Below are positions 18,681 through 50,515 of a stretch of 64,000 nucleotides of DNA, piece by piece. A program made the position numbers and the translations under genes. Source of the DNA: Limonium bicolor (taxonomy: Eukaryota; Streptophyta; Magnoliopsida; Caryophyllales; Plumbaginaceae); the NCBI GenBank assembly GCA_023374045.1, contig CM041780.1:168078085-168142084 (forward strand), in the 5' to 3' direction. The notes below the pieces were generated by a model. That model saw nothing but the letters and a program-made list of their open reading frames with translations. It ran no database searches and was not told the DNA's origin. Each line of letters begins with the position of its first letter. Positions within the stretch are counted from its first letter, which is position 1.

Positions 18681-20692
18681 ATGGAGGAGACAGAGACCAT
18701 TTTCATTGACAACTTGCATGAATCTACTGGCTTAGGTACACTATGGAGGACATTCCATGTATACGGGAGAATCGTCAATATACATAGGCCAACAAGAAGA
18801 CGCATGGCTACAAACACCCGATATGTCTTTATCAGGTTCAGAACCAAACAGGAAGCAACAAGGGCGGTGATGCAAGCGAACGGTAAGTGGGTGGACGGAA
18901 ATAGAATTACAACCCAGCTCGCGAGACCCTTGAGAAGGCCCCGACAGGAGTATCGTAATCCAAGGGTATACAAACCGCCAGAAACAGTACCTCAATCCCA
19001 AACGGTTCCACCAGAAGTAGTGCAAGAGGAACACACGAGAAGCCAAGAGGAGAATTGGGGAGGATACGAACCAAATAAGAATCATGACACACAAGGCCCG
19101 GTGAAACTATTCCCATCTGCAGTACTTATCCCTAGGCTGGACAGATGCGCTGTCATTCGCACTAAAGGAAAATGGAGCCTAGAGGAGATCAGGAAGGCGT
19201 TGGCAAAAAATGAAGCCATCGAACACATCTTTACTAAGACCATGGGTGAGCACATAGTGATATTCTATGACGTTAATGGGAGGAACAAATTCTTGCAAGC
19301 TCAAAAATGGGATATTGGAGCATGGGAGGTTGAAGCATGGAAGGAAGGAGGCTCGGAACCAAAACGGATCGTGAATGTGGTGATACGTGGTATTATGCCG
19401 GAGGCGTGGAGTGTAGAATCGATGACTACCATACTGAGTAAGCTTGGGAGAGTCTTGGAGATTGAAACCGACATGACAGTACTACCAGAAAATATGGAGG
19501 TATTTGCAAAAATTGAAACAGGGATATTCAGGATCATCAACGAGGAAATAGAGGTATTGTTCGATAACAAAATAGCAATGGTGGGTGTGATTGAAGTATG
19601 GAGCGGAGAGATAAGTGAGAAGAAGGCGGAGCAGGCACCCGGAAATACTAGGACGGAGACAAAGCCAGAAAATGGGTGGACGGTGAACCTTCCGGCGATG
19701 GGTGATGTCGACGGAACGGCGGTAACGGCGGCAACTGACGGCAACACGTGCAAAATTGCCAAGAATACAAACCCTTGAAGTGGTAAAATATAAAACTGAA
19801 AAGGAAAAAGTATATCCGGTATGTTCTCCACTTACAGTGCGCAGGCACATTGGTAACAACGACACCATGGTAGCCATTTATGCGGGGAGTGGAGCCCAAT
19901 GATATGGAAAGCCGGTCTTGGAAATAACTGGAATTGCTGGATGGAGCTTAGATTATTAAAATCAAAAGCAATGACGATTGCTCTGCAGAGATGATGGAAT
20001 AATCACAAAGATGGAAGATGGAATAATAAAGAGAAAAGGAATTAGTGGGAAAGGAAAAAGCGAACAGGGACGTGTTGACGGGGAATAATTCGCTCACAGT
20101 GGTAACTGGACAACTGAGAGATATTGATAGAATAAACCAAGGGGATATAATAAAGGACTGGTCAGAGTGCAATAGTGGGTGCGGCTCAAGTGAAATGGAG
20201 CCGTATTTATCGATATCCCCACCTGACCATCAGGACAGAAAGTGGAAGCCCATAAGTGTGGGTCTAACAGACAGTCCAAACAACGGAAGCCCAACCCCTG
20301 CAAAAAGTGGCCAACTGATAGGTATCAAGCTCAACGTGGTTCTTTCTCCAGAAGCAGTTAGTTCTACATTCGACGAACAGAAAAGTAAGAGAAAGCCTAA
20401 AAGGAAACTTCTACAGAAGCCATCTACAGAAGCGAGGAAGTGTTTTAGATATGGTCAACGGCTGCGTATCATTACTCCATACCCAAAGAGATCCTTGGCT
20501 AACATCGACAGGATACTGAGACGCTGCGGAAGGAAATCAAAAGGAGAGAATAATGGGAATGGTGATAGCCGCATACAACGTTCAAGGAGCAAAAAAGCCA
20601 GAAAAGTGGCGGCTGATAAGGAGAGAGATTCGACAGACTCAAACCAACCTTCTCTGTCTCATGGAGACACATCTCACGAAACCGTGCAATAA
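18681..20692 (+). pseudogene. LINE-1 ORF1 (RRM RNA-binding protein)
   Basis: The first frame, 18681-19778, encodes 365 residues. Residues 5-85 form an RNA-recognition motif with RNP2-like IFIDNL and RNP1-like RYVFIRFRT. A second conserved-looking region follows (roughly 150-300, with VNVVIRGIMPEAWSVESM). The frame closes at 19778, and a related basic frame follows at 20045-20692, ending in a Lys/Arg-rich tail just before ORF2. I infer that the two are halves of one ORF1 separated by a decayed stretch. RRM-type ORF1 defines the BNR subgroup of plant L1 LINEs; the protein binds the element RNA in the ribonucleoprotein. Confidence 0.75.
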
Positions 20693-21464
20693 AGAGCGTC
20701 GCTTGTGGGGGTCTGGAGGTGACACACAATGGCTGGAAATATTGGCAACCGGACATTCAGGAGGGTTGATTGTAACATGGTCCCCCAGCGAGATTACGGT
20801 GAAAGAAATAGCAAGGGGTATAAGATGGATAGCTCTAGAAGCAGTTATAAAACCACAACAATTTCAAGGTCTGGTGGTCTTCGTATATGGACCGACGAAC
20901 CCAACAGACAGGGGAACGGTGTATCAAGAGATTCTACAAATGAGAAACAGATGGGATACTCTGATACTTGTTATGGGAGATTTTAACGAAGTCCTAAATG
21001 GAGGGGAACGTAAAGGTGGGGACCCCAGAGTGCGGAGCCCATCGATGAGAGAATTCGGTAACTGGGTACAGGACATGGAGCTAATAGAAATTGATCTTAC
21101 TGGCTGTAAGTATACATGGTCAAGGAGAGGTGCATGGAGTAAACTTGACCGGGCCTTTTGTTCGGCGGAGTGGCTCGCAACATATCCACATATGACACTG
21201 AGAGGAAGACCAAGGAAGATCTCTGATCATAGATATATGTGGGTTCAAGTACAAGCCGTAGACTGGGGACCAAGGCCGTTCAGAACGCTAGATATGTGGC
21301 TCGAAGATAAATCTTTCGTGACTTTTTTTCAAGAAGAGTGGCATAAGTTAAGTCACGGGAAGGTTCAGGAAAAACTGAAAAGAATGAAGGAGGTGCTCAA
21401 GGCGTGGAATAAAAATCAGTTTGGTATGATTGACAAAGCTATTGATCAAGTCTCAAAGAAATAG
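20553..21464 (+). pseudogene. LINE-1 ORF2, APE-type endonuclease part
   Basis: Nicks target DNA to prime reverse transcription. Residue landmarks: AAYNVQGA (metal-site Asn), LMETHL (catalytic Glu), GDFNEVLNGGERKGG, SKLDRAF and the C-terminal SDHRYM (Asp-His pair). All expected catalytic residues are visible. The frame overlaps the end of ORF1 and ends at a stop near 21464. Homology to the linker continues in another frame from about 21450 (KEIDEIDNLE...), so a frameshift separates it from the RT. Confidence 0.85.
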
Positions 21465-23781
21465 ATGAGATAGATAATCTGGAGTTGCAAAATGGATGCT
21501 CTGAGGAGAATCTGACAGAGAGGAGCAAACTAAAGGCTGAAATGTGGGGACTGTTAAGGAAGGAGGAACGATACTGGAGACAGATGGCGCGCGAGAAAAA
21601 TGTAAAGGAAGGAGACTGTAACACCCGCTATTTCCATCGCAAAGCCACCATCCAGCGTAACTCAAACAGAATCACAGCGCTTATGATAAATGGAAGAATA
21701 TCGTTTAGCCCTTCGGCAATACGAACAGAAGTAAGGAGGTATTTCCGCGAGCTATATAATCGCAGGTGGGCCTCAGGCGCATTTCTATGTGAGAGAGGCA
21801 GACCCAGCTTATCCAGCCAAGATAAAGAAGCTCTAATAACAATACCCACCGTGCTGGAGATCAAAGAAATAATCAAAGAATGTGATGGGCTAAGGCCCCG
21901 GGTTATGACGGTTTCAATTTCAATTTGATAAAGAGATTGTGGCCTGTAATTGGAGATGAGTTCAGTGCAGAGGTAATCAGTTTCTTCAGAGATAACAACC
22001 TACCGACGGAGCTGAATACTACTTGGGTTACTCTCATACCGAAAGTACCAGACGCGGTCAACATCGAAAAGTTCAGGCCGATCAGTGTTATCGGCTGCGT
22101 ATACAAGGTAATCTCAAAACTCCTGGCTAAAAGACTTAGCAGAGTAATTGGCAAATTGGTGGGGGAAACACAAACTGCCTTTATAAAAGGTAGACATATA
22201 TTAGAAGGGCCACTAGTGGCAAATGAAGTTATAAGCTGGATGAAGAAGAAGAAACGGAAAGGGGTGATAATCAAGATAGATTTTCGCAAGGCATACGATT
22301 GTGTCAGCTGGTCCTTCGTACTGAAAATGCTAAAAACTTTTCAGTTCCCAGAGCGGTGGATTACATGGATAAAAAAATGTATTACCACGCCAAGAATATC
22401 GGTGTTAGTGAATGGCTCACCGACCCCGAATTTCAAACCTAGAAGGGGCCTCCGACAAGGGGACCCTCTCTCTCCACTTCTCTTTATCCTAGTGGCTGAA
22501 GCACTCAACTGGATGTTGGATTGTGCGGTACAACAAGGCGATAGAGAGGGCCTGGTGGTCGGTGCACAGGAGGTTAGAGTCTCTCATATGCAATTTGCAG
22601 ATGACACTGTTATTTTCAGCTCCTTTGAAAGAGAAGAACTACAGATTGTGAAGTGGGTTGTAACATGGTTTGCGGACATGACTGGCCTAGAGGTTAACTG
22701 GGAAAAATCTGTAGCCTTTGGGATCAACTTGGATGCAAGTGAAGAAACTATATTAGCTGATACGTTCGGATGCCAGATTGGAAAGCTACCAGGCATCTAT
22801 CTGGGACTACCGTTGGGAAGTAACACACGTAAGGCTGAAACCTGGAGGCCAGTAGTAGAAAAAATAGAGAAGAGGTTAGCTGGGTGGAAATCCTCATCTT
22901 TATCCAGAGCCGGAAAACTTATTCTAATCAGAACCGTGTTGGAAAGCATCCCAATATATTATATGAGTCTTTTTAAGATGCCCAAGAAGATTGTGAATAA
23001 AATAAATGCCATACAGAGGCGCTTCCTCTGGTGTAATGGAAGGGATAAGGGCTTAGCATTGATGAGATGGAGCAGATTAGCTCGTCCCAAAGAAGCAGGG
23101 GGGTTAGGCATCTGTGATATCGAGACGAAAAATGCAGCGTTACTGTTCCGGTGGTGGTGGAAATATCACCAGGATGGAGATAAACTGTGGAAGAAGGTTA
23201 TGGCTTCTGTTCATGGGGTTCCGGTGAGCCTACCAGTAACAGATACACTCTGGAACACAAGTAAGCAAGCAGGAGCTTGGAAATCAATATTATCAATACA
23301 ATCCTGGACGCATGAGATTAAAGAGACGCTTATACACAATCTGAAATGGGTAGTCCGGAATGGCGAAACCACCAGATTTTGGTTGGATCCTTGGCTGGGT
23401 GAGTTCATCTTGAAAGATAAGTTTCCACGATTATACTCAATAAGTCAATGTAAAACAGCAAAGATATGTGAGGTGGGAACCTGGAATGGTAATGCTTGGA
23501 CATGGAACTTGAGATGGCGTAGAACGATGTTTATGTATGAGTCCGATGAGGTGGACAGGCTCTTGAGATTGATCAATGAGTCAAACGTAGGCTCAAGTGA
23601 AGGACCAGATGGCGGTGCAGATTCACTAGTATGGTTGGCTGATAGATCAGGTGCGTATACTGTCAAGAGTTTATATAATACAGCCATGAGTAAATATCCT
23701 CCTCCTGATATCTCATGGCACATTGCAAATTGGAGTAAGTGCACCCCCCCAGAGGAAAGTTATTTACATGGTTCCTACTGA
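21465..23781 (+). pseudogene. LINE-1 ORF2, reverse transcriptase part
   Basis: Two frames, 21485-21928 (linker with GDCNTRYFHRKA) and 21925-23781. The join near 21885 is a frameshift inside the conserved KAPGYDGF motif. The RT shows FRPISVIGCVYKVISKLLA, TAFIKGRHILEG, IIKIDFRKAYDCVSW (catalytic Asp), RRGLRQGDPLSPLLFILVAE and FADDTVIFS (the YxDD box, intact). The thumb and connection run on to about residue 600. The frame ends at a C-run near 23745-23751. Confidence 0.88.
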
Positions 23782-24230
23782 ATGGTAAGCTTGCTACCCG
23801 AGATAGACTGTTTGGGTTGAATTTGACTACGCTAGGGTCGGTGTTGTGCCCGCTGTGTCAAAGAGCTGTCGAATCAATTGAACACCTCTTCTTTAGATGT
23901 CATCAATCACGGTCTTTCTGGGGTATAATTGGACGATGGTGGGGAGTAGATTTGATACTAGATGTGGAGCTACAGGAAGCTTGGAAAAGCTGGTGTGAAC
24001 AAACACCATCTACAAGATGCAGAAAGCTGTGGCTGTCTACATTCATGTTCTGCGTTTACAATCTCTGGTTCCTAAGGAATAAAATGGTATTTGATCAGGA
24101 GAGTGCTGACTGGAGCAAACTGGCACTGTCTACAAAGCTGCAGATTTTGTCATGGTGCAGCAAGTGCTCCAATGCTGCGGGAGAAACAAATCGACTACTA
24201 TTTGTCTCTAATTTGAAGGAACTGGTGTAA
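23739..24230 (+). pseudogene. LINE-1 ORF2 C-terminal zf-RVT region
   Basis: Continues ORF2 after a slip in the C-run near 23745-23751. It contains the Cys-rich reverse-transcriptase zinc-binding motif (LCPLCQRAVESIEHLFFRC, a Cx2C...HxxxxC pattern) preceded by KLFTWFLLNGKLATRDRL. The stop is at 24228-24230, followed by a 3' UTR and the poly-A at 24392-24400. Confidence 0.8.
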
Positions 24231-24416: not shown

Positions 24417-24720
24417 AAACAAATTGGGAGCGGATTTCGTCAAACATCATACTAATGGGTGTAATTTTTCAAAAAAAAAATTATAGTTTTTGTCGACATA
24501 TTATATCAAGAGCGAAGCGTCATTACATAATGAGCTATGTTGTCCCATCCAAAACCCATCTAAACTAAAAAAAAGCGCATGTCTTACCTACACCCGAATG
24601 TAGCAATTATGGCTACATGCGCTGCTTTGACCTAGTCCCTTAAGTTCCACGGTCCTTGAGACCCCCGAGGACAAAGGTCCGAGGGATGGGCATCAGTTGA
24701 AGGGCACGATGCGTTGTTCT
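24417..24720. other. Copy-B remnant plus unassigned sequence left of the Ty3 element
   Basis: 24417-24567 continues copy B (equivalent to 8040-8195). From 24568 to 24720 the sequence is unrelated to the duplication. It contains a 9-bp inverted pair, AGCGCATGT / ACATGCGCT, at 24574-24582 and 24615-24623. It probably belongs with the foreign block that continues right of the Ty3 element at 40693. Confidence 0.45.
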
Positions 24721-27700
24721 TGAAATACCCCAAATCTAATTAATATTATTAAACCATTATTTAATGGAAAATAATTCAAATATAAATCATATCACGTACG
24801 CATGCAAACCCATGCATGAGAACGTTACGTAAAATAGTCGTTTCTCCATAAACGCTAAAACGCCTTAGAAACATGTGATCAAGCATGACCTTGTATGACC
24901 TTCTAAAACTTAAACCAAATGGTCATACATTCATTATATGAATATATAAACATATTCCATAGGCTATACTCAGTCAAAAACGCAAACGCTCGGGAGTGCT
25001 CACGCGCCCCTTAAAAGCACGAAAAGCCCGGAGGAGTGCCGAGGTGGCACGAACTCCTATAAAATTAATTCCTTGAGTTCCTAACATCATTATTAACCAT
25101 TATAAAGAGAACCCATGAAGTGATTTCTCAAAATTCAGCAAAAACCACAGGAGGATTTCTTAGCGCTTCTTTTTGCCCGGGTGTGTCCCGATGGCCTGTA
25201 AATTATGTCATGGGTTGATATAACCCCATATAACTCAATGTAACATCTTAGTATATGTTTATTTACTATAATAAGTGTTCACAAACACCTGGAACATAAA
25301 AACAATTGGTTTCCCAAAATTTTCTTAGAGCACAAAAACACACCTTCGGGTGTCACGAAAACGCGTTTTACGCAATTACCTTGTAGTTTTTGACATGCCA
25401 CGAATTGGTAATCTTAAAAAGGGTTAAAATTACCTTCTAAATCAGTTGGTGAGACTAGTCAACAAGGTGCTCTATAGGGGCCGATTTTGAGAGCAAAAAC
25501 TAGTATAAAATTTGCTTTTAAAGTTTATAAAAGGCATAAAAGATAATGACTCATCATCCCATGTGTTGTATTACTTAATGTCAAAGTATGTAGGTCTTAT
25601 TTTACCAGCAAGCTGTCGAAATTATGCAGAGGAATAAGGCCATGTGAGCTAGGAAGAAAACAAAATGCAAAAAGGCAAAAAGTAGATCTAGATTCCTTTC
25701 TTTTGCTTTCTTAAAAACTAAGTAACCTTCCATGCTTCTTCCAAGCTATTCATGGCCGGTTGTTAAGCCCCATTCAGACCTCCAAATCGTGCAACACAAT
25801 GAGGAAGAAGACAAGTCATTAACTTAGAAAAATCAAGAGAATATACCTTACTTTTCTTACCTTGTCTTCTAGCTCATAATCTTTTCTTTCCAACTCTTGC
25901 CTTGTCACACACCACATGTCCGAAATTTTGCAGAGAACATGGGCATTTATTGAGCCAATAAACCTGTAATAAACTAAGGAAAAGTAAAGTCATTTGACAT
26001 TAAAAATTGACAAAGCAAAAATCAAATTCCAAATGCATTTTCTTACCTTATACAATTCATGAGTCTCATTCTTCTCCTTGCCCTCTTCATTCACGAATTG
26101 GTAAGGCTCCCTCCTCTCTCTTCTAGCTTCATCTTCTTCCTTTGAAGCTCTTAAGTCCATTAATGGAGTTTTAACTTCTATCTTCATCTTTAAGGTAATT
26201 TCCTAGCATTTATTGTCAAGCCTTGAAGCAAAACTCTTCCTAGCATACCAACAAGCATTCGACATCAATTAGTTCTCCAAGGAGGTTGTCCAAACCAACA
26301 TTAAACCAAGGAGCATCTCAAGGTTACCTTAAGGTAGTTTTAATGCTTAAAAATCCTTAAGGCACATTTTTATGTGTAACCAAGTTCTACTTCTTCTAAG
26401 ACTCTTTTCTTCTTCATTTTCATGAAGGAAAAACTTGTTCTTCATCTACCTTTGGTGAGCCGAAATTATAAGGAGAAAAAGCTTAAGGTAAATTCTTGTA
26501 AAACTACTTACAAATCTACTTAAGATCTTTATTCAAGATCTAACTCCTAAACTCCTTCACCACTTGCATATAACCGAAGTGGAGCATAAAAATTTCCTTG
26601 GAGAAAGCTTGGAGATTCAAGAGGAGTTCAAGCACTTAACCACCTTTGTTAAGAAGTAAGTTTACTAAGTAAATCTTATGCTATAAGCTTTGTTAAGCTT
26701 CTAAAATTTTTAAAAAAATTATGTACATCTCCTAGGTTTATTAAAACCGAAACTATATGGTATTATATGCCAAAAATACAATCTATAACTTATATAGAAA
26801 ATATTACCTTAAGACACATTTTTGTGTCACCAAATTTAGTTATGTTACATTAATTCAAGCCGAATTATCAAGGGCAAAAATGCTTTATTTTGAGCTAAGA
26901 ATCATATAAGACATTACAATAATTTTTACATGAGTTATATGACTCATATGAATTTATGTACATTTATTATGACATATAAATCCACTTTTATATACTATAT
27001 GGTCACTATTAATTATGGCCGAATTGCCTAAGTGAAAATATATTTTATGAGCTACTTAGTATATAAACTTATATCATAAAGTTGGTGAGTTAAAAATTCT
27101 ATTAGTGCTTAAATGGCTAATTAATTAAGTTATGGCTTAAATGTAATTTTTATAAAGTTTGGTGAGTTTAATGTGAAAACCGTGAGTTAAGTGTATTTGG
27201 TGTAATTAAATATAATATAAGGTTAGGAATTAAGTTTAAGAATTTTAGATAATTTAAACAAGCTTTAAAATAACTTTTTTAAAGTTTTGGGCTATTACGT
27301 AATTTATAAAAGTTGTTATGAAAGTTTAGAATTTATTAGTGGGCAATTCATAATTAAGAGATTATTAGGTTCACTTTCAAATTTTAAGAATTAAATATTT
27401 AGACTATAGTTTTAAGTTATTAAGTAACTATTATAAAGTTTTGGGATGAAAATGTAATTAAGGAAAGATAAATGACAAAGCCGAATTACTTTGGGGTTAG
27501 TTTGGTAATTTAAGGATTTATATATATATATTCAGCATTTATGGAGAATTAAAATTAAAACTATAGTTTACATGACATTATGTAAAGGTTATAAGATTTT
27601 GTGGTGATTGTGATTATAAAAAAATTATTAAGGCCGAGAATTTGAGGGGCTAAGTTGTAATTTTAGAAAGTTATAATATTCAAAAGCTATATACCAAAAT

Positions 27701-29535
27701 ATTAGAGGTGGTTTGTAATTTAACTAAATAAGAAGTTAAGCTCTATAATATAGAGATTAGAATTTAATATAAAGTTTATGAATTTATGTGGTTGTTTTGT
27801 AAATAACCGAAATAAAGGGTAAGAATTTAGATTAAAATAAATATAGGTCCTATATGGATATTTTGGAGAATTAGAAAGAAGAATTTTGATTAAAGGATTA
27901 TGAAGTTTAACTATGACTTATATAGTTATAAGGAATTTAAAGTAACCAATGATTATTACTTTTGGTTAAAGGAGGAATAATGAAAACTATAAGAATTTAT
28001 GTCCATGTATGACATATAAATATTAAGGAATATAAGTTGTTATGTCAACTAGACAAAAAAATAAATAACAAATATAGTACATGAATAATAAACACATATA
28101 TGTACATTAAAGGATTTATAAATAAATCAAAAGGAATAACAAATAAGTTATACATAAATCATGAGGTAATTAAAAGAAATAAACCTCACATGAAATAACA
28201 AATACGAGATTTGTTAAAAGATTCTAGATCATTATATAAGGGTAACATAAATTAACCCTCTCAGTTAATCCTATTCTAGGACTTTGTTTGACCAGACGTT
28301 GACCGGGAATTAAACAAGTACAGTCTACGGTGAACGGTATGGGATTCTTGCAACCTGTTTTCTACCGGATTACACCGGCTTGTGTGCTATCTGTTGTTTG
28401 AAATAACGACCAAGATAATTAATGTAAAATGTTGTTTACTCTTGTGCACTGTGTATTATTTTATGTGCGTGAATGATGCTGACTACAACGTGTATGTCCC
28501 ACGCATACAAACACTACTATACCAGTGGATTAAATACCTGCGCTTCAGTATACCGAGGACTTGTACTCAAGTCTCTCACTAACTTCACTTTATAACAAAC
28601 GTCATTATCCTAAACGTGATAATTGACAATACACATTGTGTTTTGTTTAACGTCTTTATATGACACTTAACAACCTATACTACGAGAACGAGGAGCCCAG
28701 TTGGATCTGGCCATGCATGCTACAGGAGTTGTACCTGTCTCAGGTCGTCTCCTACTACGTCGCGACGGAACATTTCAGTTGGAGGAAGACTCTATTCCTC
28801 TCGGGTTTCTAATGCCCATCAGTTCAGTTGAGGAAGACTTCATTCCTCTCGTGGGTTCTATTTCCCACACTCTCAGTTCAGGGTTTAACTACGTTATCTC
28901 CTGGGGTTTTTATACCCAACCTTTCATCTTAACGAGGTCACTATACCTCCACTATTTGAGATATTCAGTTATACTTGTCAGTCCCATTGTGTGGACCCGA
29001 CTATCATTAAAAGGATTTCAGTTCAGCTAACTTGACCTTCTGCAGTCTTGTTCTATGTGACATTATTGTCCTTGTATGGATACTTGTTATTATACTATGC
29101 TTGTTTACAGCTTTATAAAAATGAACTGCATGTTTCGACAAAGTAGTTGGTGTGGCCCGGTAGACGATGGGCTGCACGTTTTCCATACCAGCATTGTTTG
29201 CTGAGCCCCTTTGGGGGCACCCCCATTTTTCAGGTACCTGAAGTTGAGAAGATTACCACACCGAGTGTAGGTGGAGTAGATTCAAGCTATGGGAGTCTTC
29301 TATAGTTATTTGTTTTTACTTAAGTATTTTACATTGAGTTTGATTCCTAGTATCTCGGGTATTCGTATTCAGACCGTGACTTTTGGAGATTGTATTTGGA
29401 TTTAGCCTTGTTGGTCACAAGGGTGGCCAACGGCATTGTAATACCGCCCGGTTGTTGTATTTATTTCCGCTGCAGTTGTATTTTATTTGGGAGTGATCGC
29501 CGTTCAGTTATTGGATTTCGGGTTGGGGTGTTACA
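24721..29535 (+). repeat. 5' LTR of the Ty3 element (4815 bp)
   Basis: Begins TGAAATACCCC and ends GGGTGTTACA, directly followed by the primer binding site. It is AT-rich with long non-coding tracts. The last 1.2 kb is less AT-rich and highly similar to 39400-40692. Short open frames in it are repeated in the other LTR with length changes and are not genes. Confidence 0.92.
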
Positions 29536-29540
29536 AAAAG

Positions 29541-29552
29541 TGGTATCAGAGC
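29541..29552 (+). other. Primer binding site, initiator Met-tRNA
   Basis: TGGTATCAGAGC begins five bases after the 5' LTR. It is complementary to the 3' end of plant initiator tRNA-Met, the usual primer for Ty3 chromoviruses. Confidence 0.95.
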
Positions 29553-29710
29553 GTAGTTACGCTCTGGATACAAGGATACACCGAGATTAGGATATCTAAG
29601 ACTTAGGTTAAGGGTTGAGATAGTATTGAAAGGTTTAAGTTAGTTTTACTTAGACTACTATCCAAGACCAAGATTTGACCACAGTGCTAATATACCTCAA
29701 CATCCTGCAG

Positions 29711-31054
29711 ATGTCAGGAAGAGGAGGACGTGGACAGGCTGATGAGGAGCCAAACAGGCTGGCAGACATTGCTACTTAATCGCTCAGGCATTTGCACAGG
29801 CGGGGGTTGCACAGCAGCAGCAGCTACCTCCCACCACCACCCAGGGAGAGATGGGTGAAGAGTTTGGCTGATCTGAGGCCACTGCATTCAAGGGGCAGAC
29901 TGACCCTGCTCACTTAGACATACATCATGGAGATGGAGACAGCGTTCGAGACGCTTGCAGTCCCAGCTAGGGAAAAGTAAGGCTTGCTGCCTTTTATCTG
30001 AAGGATGCAGCTAGAGATTGGTGGAACATGGTGAAAGCCGACCACCTGGATGACCCAGCTTTTACTTGGGGACATACACTGCACTACTTAGGGGCAAATA
30101 CTACCCGGCCCACACCAGGATGGTGAAGACTAGGGAGTTTGACGCCCTGGAGCAGACGGGAAAGATGTCAGTGGATGAGTACTATGCGAAGTTCACTTCG
30201 CTACTCCGACTACCCGGTATAGGATACTCGGACCAGGTGTTGGTCGACCGTTCTACGGGGGACTGAGCCCTCGACTTCAGTTTGGGATGGGACCAATCAT
30301 CCCTACCAGTTTGCAGGTAAAACAGGAGAGACATAAACCAGTTGAAAATTTTTACATACTATACCCCGTCATGGGAGATTTGGAGATTATACCTTGAGAT
30401 TTCAGGAATGCTATCATGCTGCCTCCGTGGTGGAGATCACTTGTAAGAGAAGGGATGCTTTGAGCTCCCAAAAGAGGAAGGACGGACCTGGTGGCGAAGA
30501 TGCCAAGCAGGGGAACTCCAACAAAAGGAACAAACCCTATCAGAAAGGCCAGGGGTCCTACAAGGGAAGGGGAACCAAACTACTGGGAACCCCCAGTCAG
30601 GAACCTACGGAGCGGCAACTCACAGAAAACCTACCCATCTAAGGGTAGGCACTCTAATCAGACAGTTAGATTTGAAACTTTTGTGATTACTTCAGTACCG
30701 TTGGAATGTATAATTACCTTGATTGTATTAGGTTCTGGATCTGGCTCAAACACGGGCCAGAAGTATGTCCGCCGTTTCAACTGTAGACAGTGTGGAAAGA
30801 TCACCCCCGTGGACTGCCAAGGGGAGAAAGTCAGTGTGCCGCTACTCTCAGATACTCGGCATCGTGCCTTCGAGTGTATCCGAAACCCGGAGAGCAGGAA
30901 CTACCGCCCGGGAGCAAAGCAAACACCGGCCAAAGAATGGAGCTAGCGATACTCGCCCTCCACCAACAAACCAGCTCAGGGGTATAAGGGCAAAGGCCCA
31001 GCATCGGGACCCGCCCTGCATGTCATGGACCGCTCAGATGAGGCTGGTCCTTCT
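29711..31054 (+). pseudogene. Ty3 gag, broken
   Basis: Starts MSGRGGRGQADEEPN at 29711, closes within about 25 codons by frameshift, and continues in other frames. Landmarks are a Gln-rich stretch (29800-29830), KVRLAAFYL-type capsid wording around 29970-30030, and TREFDALEQTGKMSVDEYYAKFTSLL-like capsid homology at 30129-30230 (the retrotransposon-gag domain). A zinc knuckle near 30775-30825 reads CRQCGK but has lost the His and second half of the CCHC pattern. The gag tail runs into the AlkB-like block around 31055. At least four frame changes mean no capsid protein can be made. Confidence 0.8.
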
Positions 31055-32040
31055 ACCAACCCAGGTATTTCTAAACCATGTGAACCGTTATTGAGCAATG
31101 GATGATGTGAATGAGTGCTTGCATGCCTTGATTGCCTAATTGAGTAGGAAAAATTAGTAAGACTCACTAGTAAAATTTAAACCACGTAGGAAGCTATAAG
31201 ATATGCTTTCCTATCCCCTCACCGCCCTCCCTGGAGAAAACATTATCAAAGTACAAGAACCAGGGAACGAACAATGTAAGGTTATCCAACCAGGTTTGAT
31301 ATTACTCAAAGGATACCTAACACCGGAGACACAAATTGCAATCATCAGAAAATGTCAGAATTGGGAGCAGGACCAGGAGGGTTCTACACTCCAGAATTTC
31401 CAGGAGGATCAAAATGAAGCTGAAAATGATGTGCTTAGGAAAGGATTGGAATCCTTACTCAAAACCTACCAGATACAAGAAATGGAGATGGAGCACAAGT
31501 ACCAAAAATCCCAGAAGAATTTTTACAATTGTGGAACAAGCAGTTAATACAGCTCAACAGCTAGAAGAAGATCCAGTTCCCAATCTAAGGGCTGATCTAT
31601 CATCAACTTCTATGAAGAAGGAGGCCGTTTAGGACTACACCAGGACAATGATGAAACAAAGGGTCCCTTGAACAGGGGATACCAGTATTATCTTTGTCAA
31701 TTGGAGATGACGCAGAGTTCCTTTATGGCGAGCAGAAGCGTGTGGACCTTGCAAAGAAAATCATATTGAGTTCAGGAGATGTTTTAGTAATGGGTGGAAA
31801 GTCAAGGTTGCTTTACCATGGAGTTAAAAGGATCAAACTAAACACAGCACCTTCGACAGTGATAAACACCACTCACATGAAACCAGGAAGATTAAGTTTG
31901 ACCTTTAGAAAGTATTAGTATTGTAATTGTTTGGACATCTGAAAGGAGATCATCTCATCAATGAAGCATTATTGTTATGAAAGTGAATGTCTTTAGACCC
32001 CATCATATATCAAAGTACTCACTCAGATTCTGTTATTAGG
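31055..32040 (+). other. Foreign ~1-kb block between gag and protease
   Basis: Gag-tail wording stops near 31055 and pre-protease wording (EGALSILTEEEASKGG) starts near 32055. The block between has no Ty3 homology. It contains an AlkB-like coding sequence with short flanks on both sides. Edges are approximate, set from where the homology changes. Confidence 0.65.
31237..31918 (+). pseudogene. AlkB-like 2-oxoglutarate/Fe(II) dioxygenase, intronless captured copy
   Basis: AlkB-family enzymes oxidatively demethylate nucleic acids. Pieces in order: VIQPGLILLKGYLTPETQ (31280-31333), KDWNPYSKPTRYK (about 31441-31479), KIPEEFLQLW (about 31509-31538), INFYEEGGRLGLHQDNDET (about 31603-31660) and SIGDDAEFLYGEQKRVDLA, ending GRLSLTFRKY and a stop at 31918. 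The iron ligands are visible: HQD in LGLHQDND and the distal His in LLYHGV. The 2-oxoglutarate Arg pair sits in the final RLSLTFR. Pieces fall in different frames, with small indels and an in-frame stop, so it is not functional as it stands. No intron interrupts the conserved stretches. The best guess is a plant ALKBH1-like host gene captured through an mRNA copy. It runs in the same orientation as the retroelement. Confidence 0.85.
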
Positions 32041-32054
32041 TTGTGCTAAGGAGA

Positions 32055-32490
32055 CGGAAGGTGCCTTAAGTATACTTACTGAGGAGGAGGCCAGCAAGGG
32101 CGGCGCGATCCTCACTGGTACCTTTCCTGTTAATGGAGTGGATGCATTAGTACTGTTCGACTCCGGAGCCTCACATACTTTCGTTTCGCCTTCTTGCGGG
32201 GAAGTTGGGGCTAGACGCTGTAGAGTTACCTGATTTTAAGGTGGCACTCCCGTCTAAGGAGAAGATCAGTTGCACTCGTCTTTATAGAGGAGCCACTATC
32301 AGTATTAAGGAGGAGGATTTCCTATTGACCTTATTGAGTTCAGAGGTCTAGGATTCGATGTTATAGCCGGGATGGACTGGCTGGGGCGGCACAGAGGCCG
32401 CATTCTTTGTGCAGAGCGCAGACTGTTGCTTAAGAGCCCATCAGGAGTGACAGTATCTTACCGTCAGAGCCCTAGGCACCATCGATAAAA
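32055..32490 (+). pseudogene. Ty3 aspartic protease, broken
   Basis: Retropepsin region: ILTGTFPVNGVDALVLFDSGASHTFVS (about 32109-32190) contains the catalytic DSGA. The flap and second half (DVIAGMDWLGRHRGRI-like) follow around 32355-32405. The frame changes after the SGA motif and again before the end. The protease would normally be cut from a gag-pol polyprotein. Confidence 0.85.
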
Positions 32491-32502
32491 GTTATATCTG
32501 CT

Positions 32503-33905
32503 ATGTCCATGTACAAGCACGTCAGGAAGCAGAAGGAGTATACTATGCTATGTTCAGATGTAGAGCACGACCCTGATTTTGATCCAGCTATGCCAGTGGT
32601 GTCGGAATTTCCAGATATTTTTCCAAAGGAACTTCCAGGCTTACCGCCATCCAGAGAGGTAGAGTTCTCCATCGAATTACTACCAGGTACCGGTCCCATA
32701 GCTAAGGCACCGTACCGTATGGCACCAGCAGAGATGGCTGAGCTGAAGGAGCAGCTGAAAGATTTATTGGACAAGGGATACATACGACCTAGCGTATCTC
32801 CTTGGGGAGCACCAGTCTGTTTGTGAAGAAGAAGGATGGAAGCCTTCGTATGTATTGATTACAGGGCTTAATGCAGTGTCGGTGAAGAACAAATATCCAC
32901 TACCACGGATTGATGATTTTTTGATCAGTTGAGGGAGCAAAAGTGTTTTCGAAGATCGATTTGAGATCAGGCTACCATCAGATACCCATCAGGGAGCAAG
33001 ACATAGAAAAGACAGCATTCAGAACACGGTATGGCCACTATGAGTTTACAGTTATGCCTTTTGGCTTGTCAAATGCACCTGCAGTCTTCATGGATTTGAT
33101 GAACAGATTATTCAGAGAGCAGTTGGATAAGACCGTGGTTGTATTCATCGATGGCATCCTAATTTATTCAAAGTCTAAGGAAGAGCATGAGAGTCACCTC
33201 CGACATGTACTTGAGATCTTAAGGGAGAACCAGCTTTATGCTAAGTTCTCCAAATGTGAGTTTTGGTTGGACAGAGTTTCCTTTTTAGGACATGTTATCT
33301 CTGATGCTGGGATCGCAGTGGATCCAGCAAAGATAGAAGCAGTTCGCACTTGGCCTAGGCCAAAGACAGTTACGGACATCAGGAGTTTCCTTGGTTTAGC
33401 AGGATACTACAGAAGGTTTGTCAGAGACTTCTCCAAAATAGCCAAACCTATGACCAGCTTAATGAAGAAAGACGCACCTTTCACATGGACTACTGAATGT
33501 GAGACCTCATTCGAGCTTTTGAAGAATGCTTTGACATCAGCACCAGTTTTGACTATACCTGAAGGCACAGAGGGTTATGAAGTTTACTGTGATGCATCAG
33601 GCAGGGATTAGGGTGTGTACTCATGCAGAATGGGAAGGTAGTCGCCTACGCTTCCCGACAGTTGAAGAAACATGAGGAAAACTATCCCACACATGACTTG
33701 GAGCTTGGAGCTATTGTTTTTGCATTGAAGATCTGGCGCCACTACCTGTATGGTGTCCAGATGACCGTATATTCGGATCACAAGAGTTTGAAGTATGTAT
33801 TCACCCAGAAGGAGTTAAACATGAGACAAAGAAGATGGGTTGAATTTCTTAAGGATTGATATTGATTTGCAGTACAAAGAAGGGAAAGCTAATGTTGTAG
33901 CAGAC
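32503..33905 (+). pseudogene. Ty3 reverse transcriptase and RNase H, broken
   Basis: Frames 32503-32826, 32943-33611, 33623-33859 and on to about 33905. Landmarks: [14 protein letters not shown], then [16 protein letters not shown], a decayed palm start around 32830-32900, [36 protein letters not shown] and [11 protein letters not shown]. The last should read FIDD, so the second catalytic Asp is Gly. RNase H begins EVYCDASG (33580-33603), a stop and frame change follow, and [21 protein letters not shown] and YSDHKSLKY continue it. DIDLQYKEGKANVVADALSR marks its end. Confidence 0.92.
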
Positions 33906-35393
33906 GCACTGAGTCGACGAGCACATTCTCTAAATGCCATTGTGGCTAGCTCGAGTCTTATGGACGACATAAGTAGCGCACAACAGAGTGATCAGCGAAT
34001 GATGGAGATCAGTCAGAAGTTGTCTGACGGTACATTTGAGGGTGGAAAGTATGAGTTTCAGCTACATGATGATGGACTAATCAGATTGAAGGGAGATTGT
34101 GTATCCCAGAGACAGCACAGATATAAAGGAGCATATTCTTCGAGAGTCCCACACTTCTTCCACATCTGTCCATCCAGGAGCTTCTAAGATGTACAAAGAT
34201 CTAAGAGGTATTTCTGGTGGAGTGGTATGAAGGGCGACGTGACAGAATATGTGATTCGATGTCTCACTTGTCAGAAAGTGAAATTCGAACATAGACGACC
34301 AGGAGGTATGGTACAGTCTATGCCAGTTCCAGAGTGGAAGTTTTATGATATCTCCATGGACTTCGTGGTGGGACTACCACCTACGAGAGGAGGCCTTAAT
34401 ATGATTTGGGTTGTTGTTGATCGACTGACTAAAGTTGCTAGGTTTATTCCGATGAAAGACACTTGGAAAGTGCCAAAGTTGCAGAACTATTTGAGAGAGA
34501 TTATCAGACATCATGGAGTACCAAAGACTATTGTTTCAGATCGAGACACTAGATTTCTCTCACGATACTGGCGAGCTACTCGCGAGCACTTGGCACTGAG
34601 TTGAAGCTTAGCACAGCATTTCATCCTCAGACAGATGGTCAGTCAGAGAGGACTATTCAGACCTTAGAGGACATGCTACGAGCATGTGCCTTGGATTTCC
34701 AGGGCAGCTGGATAGATAGATTACATCTCATCGAGTTTGCATACAATAACAGCTATCACGCCTCTATACAGATGTCACCTTTCCAAGCCTTATATGGCAG
34801 ACCATGTCGCACACCATTGTGCTGGGACGAGTCTAGTGAGACCGTCATCATTGGGCCTGAGTACTTAGAGCAAGTCCAGGCAGAAGTACAACAAATCAGA
34901 AGTAACATGAAAGCAGCACAAGACAGACAGAAATCATATGCTGATGAGAGGCGACGAGACCTTGAGTTCGCGTTGGCGACCAGGTATTTCTACGAGTATC
35001 ACCCATGAAGGGTGTATTCAGATTTGGGCAAAGGGCAAGCTAAGCCCGAAATTTGTAGGACCCTACGCTATCATAGAGCGGGTGGGCCTTGTGGCATATC
35101 GACTTGATTTGCCAGCCGAGTTGGGCAAAGTACACAATGTTTTTCACGTGTCTCAGCTTAAGAAATACATGCCTCATCCTTCTCATGTTCTACAACCAGA
35201 GACACTCTCATTAGAACCAACAATGCGGTATGTGGAAACACCGCAACGAATCTTAGACAGAAAGACAAGAGATACTCGAAAAAGTCTGTGAGCCTCGTAA
35301 AGGTTCTTTGGTCGAACCACGATGTGAGAGGCCACATGGGAACTAGAAGCGATATGCGAGCGAAGTTTCCCTCATTATTTACCGACTAGACAC
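33906..35393 (+). pseudogene. Ty3 integrase with C-terminal extension, broken
   Basis: The N-terminal zinc-binding HHCC region is decayed (HTSSTSVHPG at about 34150-34180, CLTCQKVK at 34262-34285). The catalytic core keeps the DDE triad: YDISMDF, IVSDRDTRFLSRYW, and the Glu in TDGQSERTIQTLE. A frameshift near 34590-34601 splits the core. The C-terminal [19 protein letters not shown] and [12 protein letters not shown] and the tail [10 protein letters not shown]...VLWSNHDV are typical of Tekay-like chromoviruses. The tail ends near 35390. I did not identify a clear chromodomain. Confidence 0.9.
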
Positions 35394-35458
35394 TTTAGTC
35401 TAGGGTACGTGGGCGTACCCCTCTTTTTTTGGGGGGTAGAGCCTTTTTCGTTTGTGAG

Positions 35459-35604
35459 TTCAGTATGCATTTTGTTGCACTTTGTGCATTTCAGTGACAC
35501 TTTGTCTTGTATGTGTTCTTGTGTAACACTGTTCAGTATGCATTTTGTTGCACTTTGGTGCATTCAGTGACACTTGTCTTGTATGTGTTCTTGTGTAACA
35601 CTGT
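35459..35604 (+). repeat. Tandem duplication of ~73 bp in the Ty3 3' UTR
   Basis: Two adjacent near-identical units beginning TTCAGTATGCATTTTGTTGC at 35459 and 35532, each ending GTGTAACACTG. They differ by small indels. Confidence 0.9.
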
Positions 35605-35881
35605 ATTGAATGTACTTTGTACTTCTACTTGTTGGTGTGTACTTGTTACACTACAATAAAAGTTTATGTGCACACTAATTAGATATGAAAAGTGACTGTG
35701 TTATTACATTACACTATATTGTTCCAAAGTATTCCTGTTGTGTTTGATGTACACTGTGAACTTAGGAATATAGAGACTTGGGACTTGATCCCTACTAGGT
35801 TGAGTTGTGGATACTTAGTGGAACTTGATTCCCCACAACCTTATAATTTAGATATGAGACTTCGGGGCGAAGTCCTTTTTT

Positions 35882-35893
35882 AAGGGGGGTAGA
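35882..35893 (+). other. Polypurine tract of the Ty3 element
   Basis: AAGGGGGGTAGA lies immediately before the 3' LTR and primes plus-strand synthesis. Confidence 0.85.
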
Positions 35894-35894
35894 T

Positions 35895-38800
35895 TGAAAT
35901 ACCCCAAATCTAATTAATATTATTAAACCATTATTTAATGGAAATAATTCAAATAAATCATTTCACGTACGCATGCAAACCCATGCATGAGAACGTTACG
36001 TAAAAATAGTCGTTTCTCCATAAACGCTAAAACGCCTTAGAAACATGTGATCAAGCATGACCTTGTATGACCTTCTAAAACTTAAACCAAATGGTCATAC
36101 ATTATTATATGAATATAAACATATTCCCTAGCTATATTCAGTCAAAAAGCAAAACGCTCGGGAGTGCTCACGCGCCGCCCTTAAAGCACGAAAAGTCCGG
36201 AGGAGTGCCGAGGTGGCACGAACTCCTATAAAATTAATTCCTTGAGTTCCTAACATCATTATTAACCATTATAAAGAGAACCCACGAAGTGGTTTCTCAA
36301 AATTCAGCAAAAACCAGGAGGATTTCTTAGCGCTCCTTTTTGCCCGGGTGTGTCCCGATGGCCCGTAAATTATGTCATGGGTTGATATAACCCCATATAA
36401 CTCAATGTAACATCTTAGTATATGTTTATTTACTATAATAAGTGTTTACAAACACTTGGAACTCATAAAAACAATTGTTTCCCAAAATTTCCTTAGAGCA
36501 CAAAAACACACCTTCGGGTGTCACGAAAACGCGTTTTACGCAATTGCCTTGTAGTTTTTGACATGCCACGAATTGGTAATCTTAAAAGGGTTAAAATGAC
36601 CTTCTAAATCAGTTGGTGAGACTAGTCAACAAGGTCTCTATAGGGGCCGATTTTGAGAGCAAAAACTAGTATAAAATTTGCTTTAAAGTTTATAAAAATA
36701 AAGATGACTCACCTCCCATGTGTTTATTACTTAATGTCAAAGTATGTAGGTCTATTTGACCAGCTGTCGAAATTATGCAGAGAATAAGGCCATGTGAGCT
36801 AGGAAGAAAACAAAATGCAAAAGGCAAAAAGTAGATCTAGATTCCTTTCTTTTGCTTTCTTAAAACAGTAACCTTCCATGCTTCTTCCAAGCTATTCATG
36901 GCCGGTTGTTAAGCCCCATTCAGACCTCCAAATCGTGCACACAAGGGAAGAAGACAAGTCATTAACTTAGAAAAATCAAAGAATATACCTTACTTTTTTA
37001 CCTTGTCTTCTAGCTCATATCTTTTCTTTCCAACTCTTGCCTTGTCACCACCACATGTCCGAAATTTTGCAGAAACATGGGCATTTATTGAGCCAATAAA
37101 CCATGTAATAAACTAAGGAAAAGTAAAGTCATTTGACATTAAAAATTGACAACGCAAAACAAATTCCAAATGCATTTTCTTACCTTATACAATTCGTGAG
37201 TCTCATTCTTCTCCTTGCCCTCTTCATCACGAATTGGTAAGGCTCCTCCTCTCTCTTCTAGCTTCATCTTCTTCCTTTGAAGCTCTTAAGTCCATTAATG
37301 GAGTTTTAACTTCTATCTTCATCTTTAAGGTAATTTCCTAGCATTTTTGTCAAGCCTTGAAGCAAAACTCTTCCTAGCATACAACAAGCATTCGACATCA
37401 ATTAGTTCTCCAAGGAGGTTGTCCAAACCAACATTAAACCAAGGAGCATCTCAAGGTTACTTAAGGTAGTTTTAATGCTTGAAATCCTTAAAGCACATTT
37501 TTATGTGTAACCAAGTTCTACTTCTTCTAAGCTCTTTTCTTCTTCATTTTCATGAAGGAAAACTTGTTCTTCATCCACCTTTGGTGAGCCGAAATTATAA
37601 GGAGAAAAGCTTAAGGTAAATTCTTGTAAAACTACTTACAAATCTACTTAAGATCTTTATTCAAGATCTAACTCCTAAACTCCTTCACCACTTGCATATA
37701 ACCGAAGTGGAGCATCAAATTTCCTTGGAGAAAGCTTGGAGATTCAAGAGAGTTCAAGCACTTAACCACCTTTGTTAAGAAGTAAGTTTACTAAGTAAAT
37801 CTTTATGTTATAAGCTTTGTTAAGCTTCTAAAAATTTTAAAAAAAATTATGTACATCTCCTAGGTTTATTAAAACCGAAACTATATGGTATTATATGCCA
37901 AAAATACAATCTATAACTTATATAGAAAATATTTACCTTAAGACACATTTTTGTGTCACAAATTTTATGTTACAATTAATTCAAGCCGAATTATCAAGGG
38001 CAAAAATGCTTTATTTTGAGCTAAGAATCAATATAAGACATTACAATAATTTTTACATGAGTTATATGACTCATATGAATTTATGTACATTTATTATGAC
38101 ATATAAATCCACTTTTATATACTATATGGTCACTATTTAATTATGGCCGAATTGCCTAAGTGAAATATTTTATGAGCTACTTATGTATATAAACTTATAT
38201 CATAAAGTTGGTGAGTTAAAATATTCTATTAGTGCTTAAATGGCTAATTAATTAAGTTAAGTGGCTTAAATGTAATTTTTATAAAGTTTGGTGAGTTTAA
38301 TGTGAAAACCGTGAGTTAAGAGTGTATTTGGTGTAATTAAAATATAATATAAGGTTAGGAATTAAGTTTAAGAATTTTAGATAATTTAAACAAGCTTTAA
38401 AATAACTTTTATAAAGTTTTGGGCTATTATAATTTATAAAAGTTGTTATGAAAGTTTAGAATTATTAGTGGGCAATTCATAATTAAGAGAATTATTAGGT
38501 TCACTTTCGAAATTTTAGAATTAAATATTTAGACTATAGTTTATAAGTTATTAAGTAACTATTATAAAGTTTTGGGATGAAAATGTAATTAAGGAAAATA
38601 AATGACAAAGCCGAATTACTTTGGGGTTAGTTTGGTAATTTAAGATTTATATAATATATTCGGCATTTATGGAGAATTAAAATTAAAACTATAGTTTACA
38701 TGACATTATGTAAAGGTTATAAGATTTTGTGGTTAGATTGTGATTATAAGAAATAAATTATTAAGGCCGAGAATTTGAGGGGCTAAGTTGTAATTTTAGA

Positions 38801-40692
38801 AAGTTATAATATTCAAAAGCTATATACCAAAATATTAGAGGTGGTTTTATAATTTAACTAAATAAGAAGTTAAAACTCTATAATAATGAGATTAGAATTT
38901 AATATAAAGTTTATGAATTTATGTGGTTGTTTTGTAAATAACCGAAATAAAAGGGTAAGAATTTAGATTAAAATAAATATAGGTCCTATATGGATATTTG
39001 GAGGAATTAGAAAGAAAGAATTTTGATTAAAGGAGTTATGAAGTTTAAACTATGACTTATATAATTATAAGGAATTTAAAGGTAACCAATAATTATTACT
39101 TTTGGTTAAAGGAGGAATAATGAAAACTATAAGAATCTTATGTCCATGTATGACATATAAAATAGTTAAGGAATCATAAGTTGTTATGTCAACTAGACAA
39201 AAAAAATAAAACAAATATAGTACATGAATAAATAACACATTATGTACATTAAAGGATTTATAAATAAATCAAAAGGAATAACAAATAAGTTATACATAAA
39301 ATCATGAGGTAATTAAAAGAAAAAACCTCACATGAAATAACAAATACAGATTTGTTAAAAGATTCAATAGAATCATTATATAAGGGTAACATAAATTAAC
39401 CCTCTCAGTTAATCCTATTCTAGGACTTTGTTTGACCAGACGTTGACCGGGAATAAACAAGTACAGTCTACGGTGAACGGTATGGATTCTTGCAACCTGT
39501 TTTCTACCGGATTACACCGGCTTGTGTGCTATCTGTTGTTTGAAATAACGACCAAGATCATTAATGTAAAATGTTGTTTACTCTTGTGCACTGTGTATTA
39601 TTTTATGTGTGTGAATGATGCTGACTACAACGTGTATGTCCCACGCATACAAACACTACTATACCAGTGGATTAAATACCTGTGCTTCAGTATACCGAGG
39701 ACTTGTACTCAAGTCTCTCACTAACTTCACTTTATAACAAACGTCATTATCCTAAACGTGATAATTGGCAATACACATTGTGTTTTTGTTTAACGTCTTT
39801 ATATGACACTTAACAACTCTATACTACGAGAATGAGGAGCCCAGTTGGATCTGGCCATGCATGCTACAGGAGCTGTACCTGTCTCAGGTCGTCTCCTACC
39901 TACGTCGCGACGGAACACTTCAGTTGAGAGGAAGACTTTATTCCTCTCGGGTTTCTAATGCCCATCAGTTCAGTGTGAGGAAGACTTCATTCCTCTCGTG
40001 GGTTCTATTTCCCACATTTCTCAGTTCAGGGTTTAACTACGTTATCTCCTGGGGTTTTTATACCCAACCTTTCTATCTTAACGAGGTCACTATACCTCCA
40101 TTATTTGAGATATTCAGTTATACCTGTCAGTCCCATTGTGTGGACCCGACTATCATTAAAGATTTCAGTTCAGCTAACTTGACCTTCTGCAGTCTTGTTC
40201 TATGTGACATTATTGTCCTTGTATGGATACTTGTTATCAGTATACTATGCTTGTTTACAGCTTATTAAAAATGAACTGCATGTATTCGACAAAGTAGTTG
40301 GTGTGGCCCGGTAGACGATGGGCTGCACGTTTTCCATACCAGCATTGTTTGCTGAGCCCCTTTGGGGGCACCCCCATTTTTCAGGTACCTGAAGTTAAGA
40401 AGATTACCACACCGAGTGTAGGTGGGGTAGATTCAAGCTATGGGAGTCTCCTACTAGTTATTTGTTTTTACTTAAGTATTTTACATTTGAGTTTGATTCC
40501 TAGTATCTCGGGTTGTATTCGTATTCATACCGTGACTTTTGGAGATTGTATTTGGAGTTAGCCTTGTTGGTCACAAGGGTGGCCAACGGCATTGTAATAC
40601 CGCCCGGTTGTTGTATCTATTTCCGCTGCAGTTGTATTTTATTTGGGTGTGATCGCCGTTCAGATTATTGGATTTCGGGTTGGGGTGTTACA
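35895..40692 (+). repeat. 3' LTR of the Ty3 element (4798 bp)
   Basis: Begins TGAAATACCCC and ends GGGTGTTACA, followed by the right target duplication GTTCT. It differs from the 5' LTR by many single-base indels, often in short homopolymers, and by scattered substitutions. Confidence 0.92.
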
Positions 40693-40701
40693 GTTCTGGC
40701 C

Positions 40702-49747: not shown

Positions 49748-50515
49748 ATAAGTGGTTAGTGGACTCTCCTTTGTGTAATTATGCTAACTCCTTCTCTTCT
49801 ATAGATATGGAGCCTACTGTGGCTGATCTGTGGGAAGTTAATAGGGGTTGGAAATGGGAGCTATTGGAGAATATATTACCCCCTGATATACTTAATCTTC
49901 TGCCCAGTAAAGCTATCTTAGGCTCTGAGCTAGAGGATTCCATTACCTGGAATTCTGCCAAAAATGGGGATCTCACAGTCTCCTCACCTTATGAGATCAT
50001 TAGGAACAAAGGTGTGCATAACCCCCTGTGGAATCTGATCTGGAGTGTTAAAGTACCTCAAAAAGTAAAAACCTGCCTATGGATGATTGGACAGGATGGT
50101 CTTAAAACCAAGAGTCTCCTGTTTCAGCGTGGTTTAATCCCTCACTATTCTTGTGATGCGTGTGGGGATAGAGAAGACTCTGCCCATATTTTGAAACATT
50201 GTCCTGTGAGTATTATAGTCTGGAAACATCTATTAAGAGATAGCTCTGTTATTGACCATTGGGCTAATTGTAGTACTCAGGATTGGCTCATCTTGAACTT
50301 GAAGAATCCGCACATTCCTAATATCTATAACTCTGATTGGCCATGTCTGTTTGCTGTCACTTGTTATGTACTTTGGTTTTGGAGAAATTTTAAGTTTCAT
50401 AATAATGTTACTGAGAAAGATCTGCCTATTCCTTTGCTTTTCTCTAAATTTCAGGAGTTGTTGTCCACGCCTGAAGTGAAGCATTTGCAGAACAAAATAA
50501 ATAACGGGGTACAGA
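49748..50515 (+). pseudogene. LINE-2 ORF2, zf-RVT region
   Basis: Frame 49759-50622. It contains a zinc-binding motif of the RT C-terminus: WNLIWSVKVPQKVKTCLWM, then YSCDACGDREDSAHILKHC (Cx2C...HxxxxC). It connects the RT to the RNase H domain; a C13 run at 50527-50539 then shifts the frame. Confidence 0.82.

Follow-up and report, generated by a model that had tools for sequence, protein, structure and literature searches.

The locus considered here raises the question of how a gene for an AlkB-like dioxygenase came to lie between gag and protease of a plant retrotransposon, and in what form it would be expressed there. The window, a stretch of 64,000 nucleotides from Limonium bicolor, had previously been given a sequence-only reading, in which the gene was taken to be a dead copy of a spliced host mRNA captured by a Ty3 element.

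Structure and age of the element

A complete Ty3 LTR retrotransposon of about 16 kb occupies positions 24716–40697 of the window (Table 1). Ty3/Gypsy membership is indicated by the presence of LTRs, a target site duplication, a primer binding site, a polypurine tract and the order gag, protease, reverse transcriptase, RNase H and integrase. The primer binding site is of a type that we take to be that of initiator tRNA-Met. In single-frame pieces of the window copy, Pfam matches were obtained in order for Retrotrans_gag (30054–30266, E 1.2e-6), 2OG-FeII_Oxy_2/AlkB (PF13532, 31655–31918, E 6.4e-23) and RVP_2 protease (31997–32233, E 1.2e-9), which bears out both the AlkB assignment and the placement of the gene between gag and protease. 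The pol region gave matches to RVT_1, RT_RNaseH, Integrase_H2C2 and SH3_Tf2-1, with rve below its curated cut-off. No Pfam match to a Chromo domain was obtained in the C-terminal pieces 34911–35291 and 35162–35389, and SH3_Tf2-1 was found; the element has a Tekay-like look and may be a chromovirus.

The LTRs are about 4.8 kb each and 95.9% identical over 4873 alignment columns including gaps (blastn), with 70 mismatches, 99 gap events and a K2P distance of 0.0149. At a substitution rate of 1.3e-8 per site and year, uncalibrated for this host, this distance corresponds to an insertion age of roughly 0.6 million years.

Table 1. Features of the element, in positions of the window.
Feature	Position	Strand	Basis or remark
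Target site duplication GTTCT, 5' copy	24716..24720	.	same five bases at 40693-40697
5' LTR (TGAAATACCCC...GTGTTACA)	24721..29535	+	blastn of the two LTRs against each other
Primer binding site TGGTATCAGAGC	29541..29552	+	sequence
gag exon 1, capsid part, frame-broken in window copy	29711..30316	+	ATG at 29711; Retrotrans_gag in 30054-30266
gag intron 1, 89 nt, GCAG/GTAAAA ... TTTCAG/GAATG	30317..30405	+	absent in some copies
gag exon 2	30406..30644	+	projection
gag intron 2, 87 nt, AAGG/GTAGGC ... TATTAG/GTTCTGG	30645..30731	+	absent in some copies
gag exon 3, zinc knuckle region to ...STNP-G	30732..31064	+	
Intron 3 short form, Gag/AlkB, donor CCCAG/GTATTT, acceptor CCACGTAG/GAAGC	31065..31189	+	11 joined loci
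AlkB exon, ALKBH1-type 2OG-Fe(II) dioxygenase (by predicted fold), stop 31916-31918	31190..31918	+	indel-broken in window copy
Intron 3 long form, skips AlkB, Gag to Pro, acceptor TTATTAG/GTTGTG	31065..32039	+	2 joined loci
Protease, reverse transcriptase, RNase H, integrase, SH3_Tf2-1 region	32040..35392 (3' limit approximate)	+	Pfam; frame-broken in window copy
Polypurine tract AAGGGGGGTAGAT	35882..35894	+	sequence
3' LTR	35895..40692	+	blastn against 5' LTR
Target site duplication GTTCT, 3' copy	40693..40697	.	sequence

Elsewhere in the window, by reading only, a 660-aa open frame at 13264–15246 (+) looks derived from a hAT-type transposase, 20520–24230 (+) and 47124–50622 (+) appear LINE-like with endonuclease and reverse transcriptase wording, and two host-like genes resemble an ecdysoneless/SGT1-type protein (281–1537, −) and a ZIP metal transporter (6898–7719, −). 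An array of about 26 copies of an 11-base unit lies within repetitive open frames at 56037–56332. Two nearly identical 163-aa open frames, at 58664–59155 and 62784–63275 (+), are 4,120 bases apart and thus form a direct repeat near the end of the window.

AlkB in other copies of the element

The stretch 31055–32040 was found in 40/40 scored places of the 2.92 Gb host genome at 96–100% identity, the 40 being scored out of 2,620 first-look candidates and the 100% place being the window itself. A pattern for the boundary of gag and intron 3 gave 1,035 genomic matches at no more than 3 mismatches and 0 in the reversed control, so this boundary, one of the junctions for which a search had been proposed, is shared by many copies. 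Because the AlkB stretch was present in all 40 places, it belongs to the element and is no private insertion. A later insertion unique to this locus, one of the outcomes that were to have overturned the sequence-only reading, is refuted by the same counts.

With an AlkB protein query, 147/150 scored places had no internal stop within the match, these places being the best-scoring and thus biased towards open frames. Sixty loci were examined, comprising a DNA-chosen set (L001–L030, with L001 the window copy) and a protein-chosen set (L031–L060); since L006 and L035 coincide, the 60 loci represent 59 places, and the 72 loci reached with the joined copies described below represent 71. AlkB was open from the CKVIQPG motif to the stop in 25/60 loci, with 0/30 in the DNA-chosen and 25/30 in the protein-chosen set. 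The intact relatives that had been asked for thus exist in number, and the window copy is one of a large, recently active Ty3 family.

Splice sites and joined genomic copies

The AlkB exon lies within the GT-AG intron 3. A single donor at 31065 faces two acceptors, at 31190 before AlkB and at 32040 before protease, both in phase; the former, CCACGTAG/GA, opens straight into AlkB in the same phase as the protease acceptor. Without splicing, the gag frame ends at an in-frame TGA at 31103–31105. Of 60 loci, 57 had the donor word and all had the protease acceptor word. Among the 25 open AlkB copies, 21 had no in-frame Met before residue 55, and in 17 the first one lay at residue 82, as expected for an internal exon.

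One donor with two phase-matched acceptors predicts two joined sequences, and both joins were written as patterns ahead of the genome search, with reversed patterns as controls. The Gag–Pro joined sequence was found at 2 loci with 0 mismatches and the Gag–AlkB joined sequence at 11 loci with 0–1 mismatches, each with a reversed control of 0; joined copies therefore make up 13 of 1,048 sites, the other 1,035 being unspliced. Twelve joined loci were fetched (L061–L072), 10 of them Gag–AlkB, with the Gag–AlkB locus C8:116196426 left out. Most aligned pieces of the joined copies were about 90–97% identical to the window copy, and on the pol side the highest identities of the two Gag–Pro copies to intron-bearing ones were 97.8% and 99.1%.

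The Gag–AlkB copy L064, the one joined copy checked for a target site duplication, is an ordinary insertion, its LTR start being preceded by AGCCT (L073) and its LTR end followed by AGCCT (L080). An unaltered 659-aa genomic frame of this copy has matches to Ty3_capsid, Retrotrans_gag and PF13532, the last at 449–657 (E 1e-47); the frame of L067 is of equal length, giving two Gag–AlkB loci with an open 659-aa frame. AlkB was without frameshift in 3/10 fetched Gag–AlkB loci. Open frames were judged in the fetched joined loci other than L069; across the Gag–Pro join L062 had an unaltered 625-aa frame that extends from the Gag end to RVP_2 and RVT_1, that of L061 being shorter at 170 aa. Gag–AlkB copies spaced at about 11 kb (C1:98426689/98437729/98448727 and C7:92180187/92191103) were also observed, a spacing that suggests tandem LTR-internal arrays.

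What the sequence-only reading missed is AlkB as a predicted alternatively spliced exon that could be fused in frame to Gag.

Absence of gag introns and possible number of independent joins

Intron 1 was absent in 16/69 scorable loci and intron 2 in 14/71. L061–L072, picked for a joined intron 3, contributed 9 of those 16 (9/11 scorable) and 10 of those 14 (10/12), and within L001–L060, picked without regard to intron loss, intron 1 was missing in 7/58 and intron 2 in 4/59. The intron-1 join had 101 genomic matches in several sequence backgrounds, with a control of 0. Joins of introns 1 and 2 fit the GT-AG sites to the letter in all but four loci, L038 and L069 for intron 1 and L009 and L065 for intron 2, where a few letters deviate at the join or close to it.

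The introns were missing in various combinations, L009 lacking introns 1 and 2 and keeping 3, L033 lacking only 2, L044 lacking only 1, and L062 and L066 retaining 1 and 2 and lacking 3. Such mixed combinations are what would be left by partly spliced RNAs after reverse transcription. On a copy tree of 72 tips, Gag–Pro joining took 2 changes, Gag–AlkB joining 3 (6 if no reversal is allowed) and intron-1 loss about 10, the last an imperfect tally that leaves out L061 and counts the unscorable L072. As the Gag–AlkB copies fall mostly in one part of the tree and 5/11 belong to the two groups spaced at about 11 kb, it may be that no more than two independent Gag–AlkB events took place.

Predicted type of the enzyme

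An AF2 model of the unaltered AlkB frame of L037 had a pLDDT of 93.7, and its best PDB matches (Foldseek) were the OsALKBH1 structures 5XOI and 5XEG, with TM 0.91 and 0.92 by target and 52% identity, followed by E. coli AlkB; phmmer gave 9e-75 for 5xeg. The iron ligands and Arg pair noted earlier were confirmed, as the HxD...H iron motif (H159, D161, H219 of L037) and the R.....R and N/Y residues for 2OG (R243, R249, N148, Y150) fall in invariant or nearly invariant columns across 68 sequences, with a jelly-roll fold by prediction. Named plant relatives, several of them annotated ALKBH1C or ALKBH1D, were 43–54% identical among the best 120 listed. By predicted fold the element enzyme is thus ALKBH1-type, with putative activity. 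It shares the domain along its full length and the predicted fold with OsALKBH1 (5XEG/5XOI) and plant ALKBH1C/1D, whereas the host ALKBH1-type proteins inspected have a further N-terminal region. Rice ALKBH1 is reported to remove the methyl group of 6mA from single-stranded DNA and R-loops (PMC10469495), so the removal of m6A or m1A from element RNA proposed earlier is only one option.

Selection and frame disruption

AlkB pN/pS (NG86-type counts) was 0.18 in the 30 DNA-chosen copies, 0.15 in the 30 protein-chosen copies, a set biased towards open frames, and 0.13 in 10 junction-chosen copies; the values for Pro-RT were 0.07, 0.08 and 0.10 (30, 29 and 2 copies of the respective sets), AlkB being at about twice the Pro-RT value. 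Shared AlkB variants in L001–L030 were 19 synonymous to 10 nonsynonymous, compared with 22% to 72% for random changes, and singletons were 15 nonsynonymous to 12 synonymous, a ratio nearer to neutrality, as would be anticipated once copies have inserted. The selection check suggested earlier thus found mainly synonymous change among copies, a pattern indicative of purifying selection on AlkB.

The AlkB of the window copy runs in the sense direction, and its frame is broken. Across L001–L030, the AlkB sequences had 138 indel events relative to the reference frame, of which 129 were deletions and 118 were one base long. Nonsense substitutions in AlkB numbered none in L001–L030 and one in L031–L060, and Pro-RT had three in L001–L030. 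The 115 isolated one-base deletions in the AlkB of L001–L030 sit on 41 sites, one of which is affected in 13 copies, and 94/115 lie in runs of at least two identical bases vs 54% of positions. In the window LTR pair, too, gap events outnumber mismatches. Systematic assembly error likely contributes to the frameshifts in L001–L030, and some deletions possibly derive from shared ancestry. As a statement about the lineage, the description as dead is doubtful given the many open copies and the same-site one-base deletions in base runs, and broken frames are weak grounds for it.

Divergent AlkB-bearing families and the search for a donor

The database proteins closest to the element AlkB, P0001–P0005, were at 61–74% over the aligned part. 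In a tree of 60 sequences, from which the near-duplicate rows P0008, P0127, P0136 and P0146 were left out, the element AlkBs and P0001–P0005 formed one clade of 11 tips with support 88 (98 in a smaller tree). Beside it stood a group of 42 proteins (support 98), being named angiosperm proteins and two others, and the remaining 7 were bacterial or unlabelled. We infer that P0001–P0005 are element-borne and from other species.

A P0002 query of the host genome gave a second AlkB set of 141 scored places, 68–74% identical to P0002, and P0002 was nested inside this set with support 100. The three loci inspected (L077–L079) keep the order gag, AlkB, protease; in L077 and L079, 252-aa AlkB frames are open, 62–63% identical to the window-family AlkB, and a phase-1 donor is paired with a phase-1 acceptor before AlkB. 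In a further variant (L083 and L084), both acceptors are in matching places, and the frame before AlkB is shifted so that the phase is unreadable. The L079-like unspliced pattern had 19 genomic matches, and joined sequences are known from the window family only. The presence of AlkB in divergent families in the same order indicates that it was there before the families split.

An extra GT-AG intron was seen in the protease of L079 (about 2460–2533 of the oriented locus, VITG/TFPVNG) and apparently also in L078. It is absent from L077 and the window family, so that introns come and go in such elements.

No relatives were found in viral contigs. The host donor gene was sought with a 69-residue piece of palm ALKBH1D and none was found among 150 scored places (best E 3e-5), the three loci inspected having element-type AlkB frames. 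Capture of a spliced host mRNA, as first proposed, is not supported, the donor gene not having been found and a working-looking splice acceptor preceding the AlkB exon.

Comparison with known elements

The Phalaenopsis element Gypsy_Pa_2799 is reported to be a multicopy Ty3/Gypsy element with an AlkB (2-ODD) domain that has demethylase activity in vitro, and a screen of 121 angiosperm genomes found the domain in two Phalaenopsis species only (PMC9289625). An AlkB-bearing Ty3 lineage, which the sequence-only reading called unusual, accordingly has a precedent. The two are alike in being multicopy Ty3 LTR elements with very long LTRs and an AlkB with conserved Fe and 2OG ligands. The Phalaenopsis element is described there as having a reverse transcriptase sister to Ogre/Tat, a tRNA-Arg primer binding site, a single gag-pol ORF and an AlkB of ALKBH5/9B type in an independent ORF2 (PMC9289625). 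In contrast, the present element has three introns, with AlkB inside the gag/protease intron and joined to Gag in some copies; its primer binding site TGGTATCAGAGC is not complementary to tRNA-Arg, and its AlkB is set apart from ALKBH5/9B by its closest structures, OsALKBH1 and E. coli AlkB. In the features compared, it is a variant separate from the Phalaenopsis elements.

In Ogre (PMC6317226), BARE1 (PMC3735527) and EVADE (PMC12786077), splicing around gag/pol sets the protein made; in the portions of these sources available, the gag/pol intron is described without an enzyme exon inside, unlike the present element. No report of a plant LTR element in which splicing selects an enzyme exon came up in a literature search largely confined to papers outside subscription and excluding bioRxiv.

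Proposed mechanism and alternative explanations

The splice sites and genomic copies make it likely that this is a Ty3 family with three spliceosomal introns, in which an ALKBH1-type AlkB was captured at the gag/protease boundary and kept as an alternatively spliced exon, giving Gag, Gag–AlkB and Gag–Pro–Pol. An ancestral element would have taken up the gene at this boundary. Assuming that the element is transcribed, unspliced RNA would serve as genome, and where intron 3 is retained Gag would end early at the in-frame stop. Removal of introns 1 and 2, read from genomic copies, would give full Gag; judging from genomic retrocopies, use of the donor at 31065 with the acceptor at 31190 would give a Gag–AlkB fusion and with that at 32040 Gag–Pro–Pol. 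The Gag part might then carry AlkB into the virus-like particle, where, going by its enzyme family, it could demethylate or repair element RNA or single-stranded cDNA. Only tentatively do we extend this to the full account, in which the choice between two 3' splice sites makes the three products, a Gag-fused ALKBH1-type demethylase is loaded in the particle and there removes or repairs methylated bases of the packaged RNA or the nascent cDNA, and the trait is of long standing, having been retained across families and probably across species.

An AlkB translated separately from unspliced RNA by internal or non-AUG initiation, with the Gag–AlkB join as a by-product, appears unlikely. Cryptic splicing of long RNAs is common, and the orchid element has its AlkB in an ORF of its own (PMC9289625), but the first in-frame Met comes at residue 55 or later in most open copies (21/25) and the window family, L077 and L079 all have an acceptor whose phase fits Gag. 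That phase agreement also tells against AlkB being a functionless passenger from an old capture, dispensable to the element and harmless because it is spliced out as an intron. Its removability in the two Gag–Pro loci, a pN/pS above that of Pro-RT and the broken frames in many copies would suit such a passenger; yet substitutions are mainly synonymous, nonsense changes amount to none in L001–L030 and one in L031–L060, and the 252-aa frames of L077 and L079 are open at 62–63% identity, which leaves this explanation quite improbable.

We also considered that the joined forms are ancestral, and not splice products, and that the introns, including intron 3, were inserted later. AGGT on both sides of the long intron could be a target duplication, and the Gag–AlkB copies are partly clustered. 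Against this, the joined copies are few (13/1,048) and closely similar to intron-bearing copies, the sets of introns absent vary from copy to copy among 1, 2 and 3, all introns are GT-AG and the L079 sites are in matching positions, so that later gain is very unlikely. That a processed host AlkB transcript landed by chance in the window copy alone and is dead there would agree with the broken frame of that copy but not with the 40/40 places, the 1,035 boundary matches and the AlkB of divergent elements, and its probability is negligible.

Implications

An alternatively spliced AlkB exon would make this family a second and distinct example of AlkB retained in a Ty3 element, with another enzyme type and another mode of expression. 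An LTR element would here combine several introns with an enzyme exon subject to alternative splicing, and as its joined forms are preserved in genomic copies, DNA could serve for the study of splice use. Retention of the enzyme would suggest that base methylation affects retroelement replication enough to select for an eraser.
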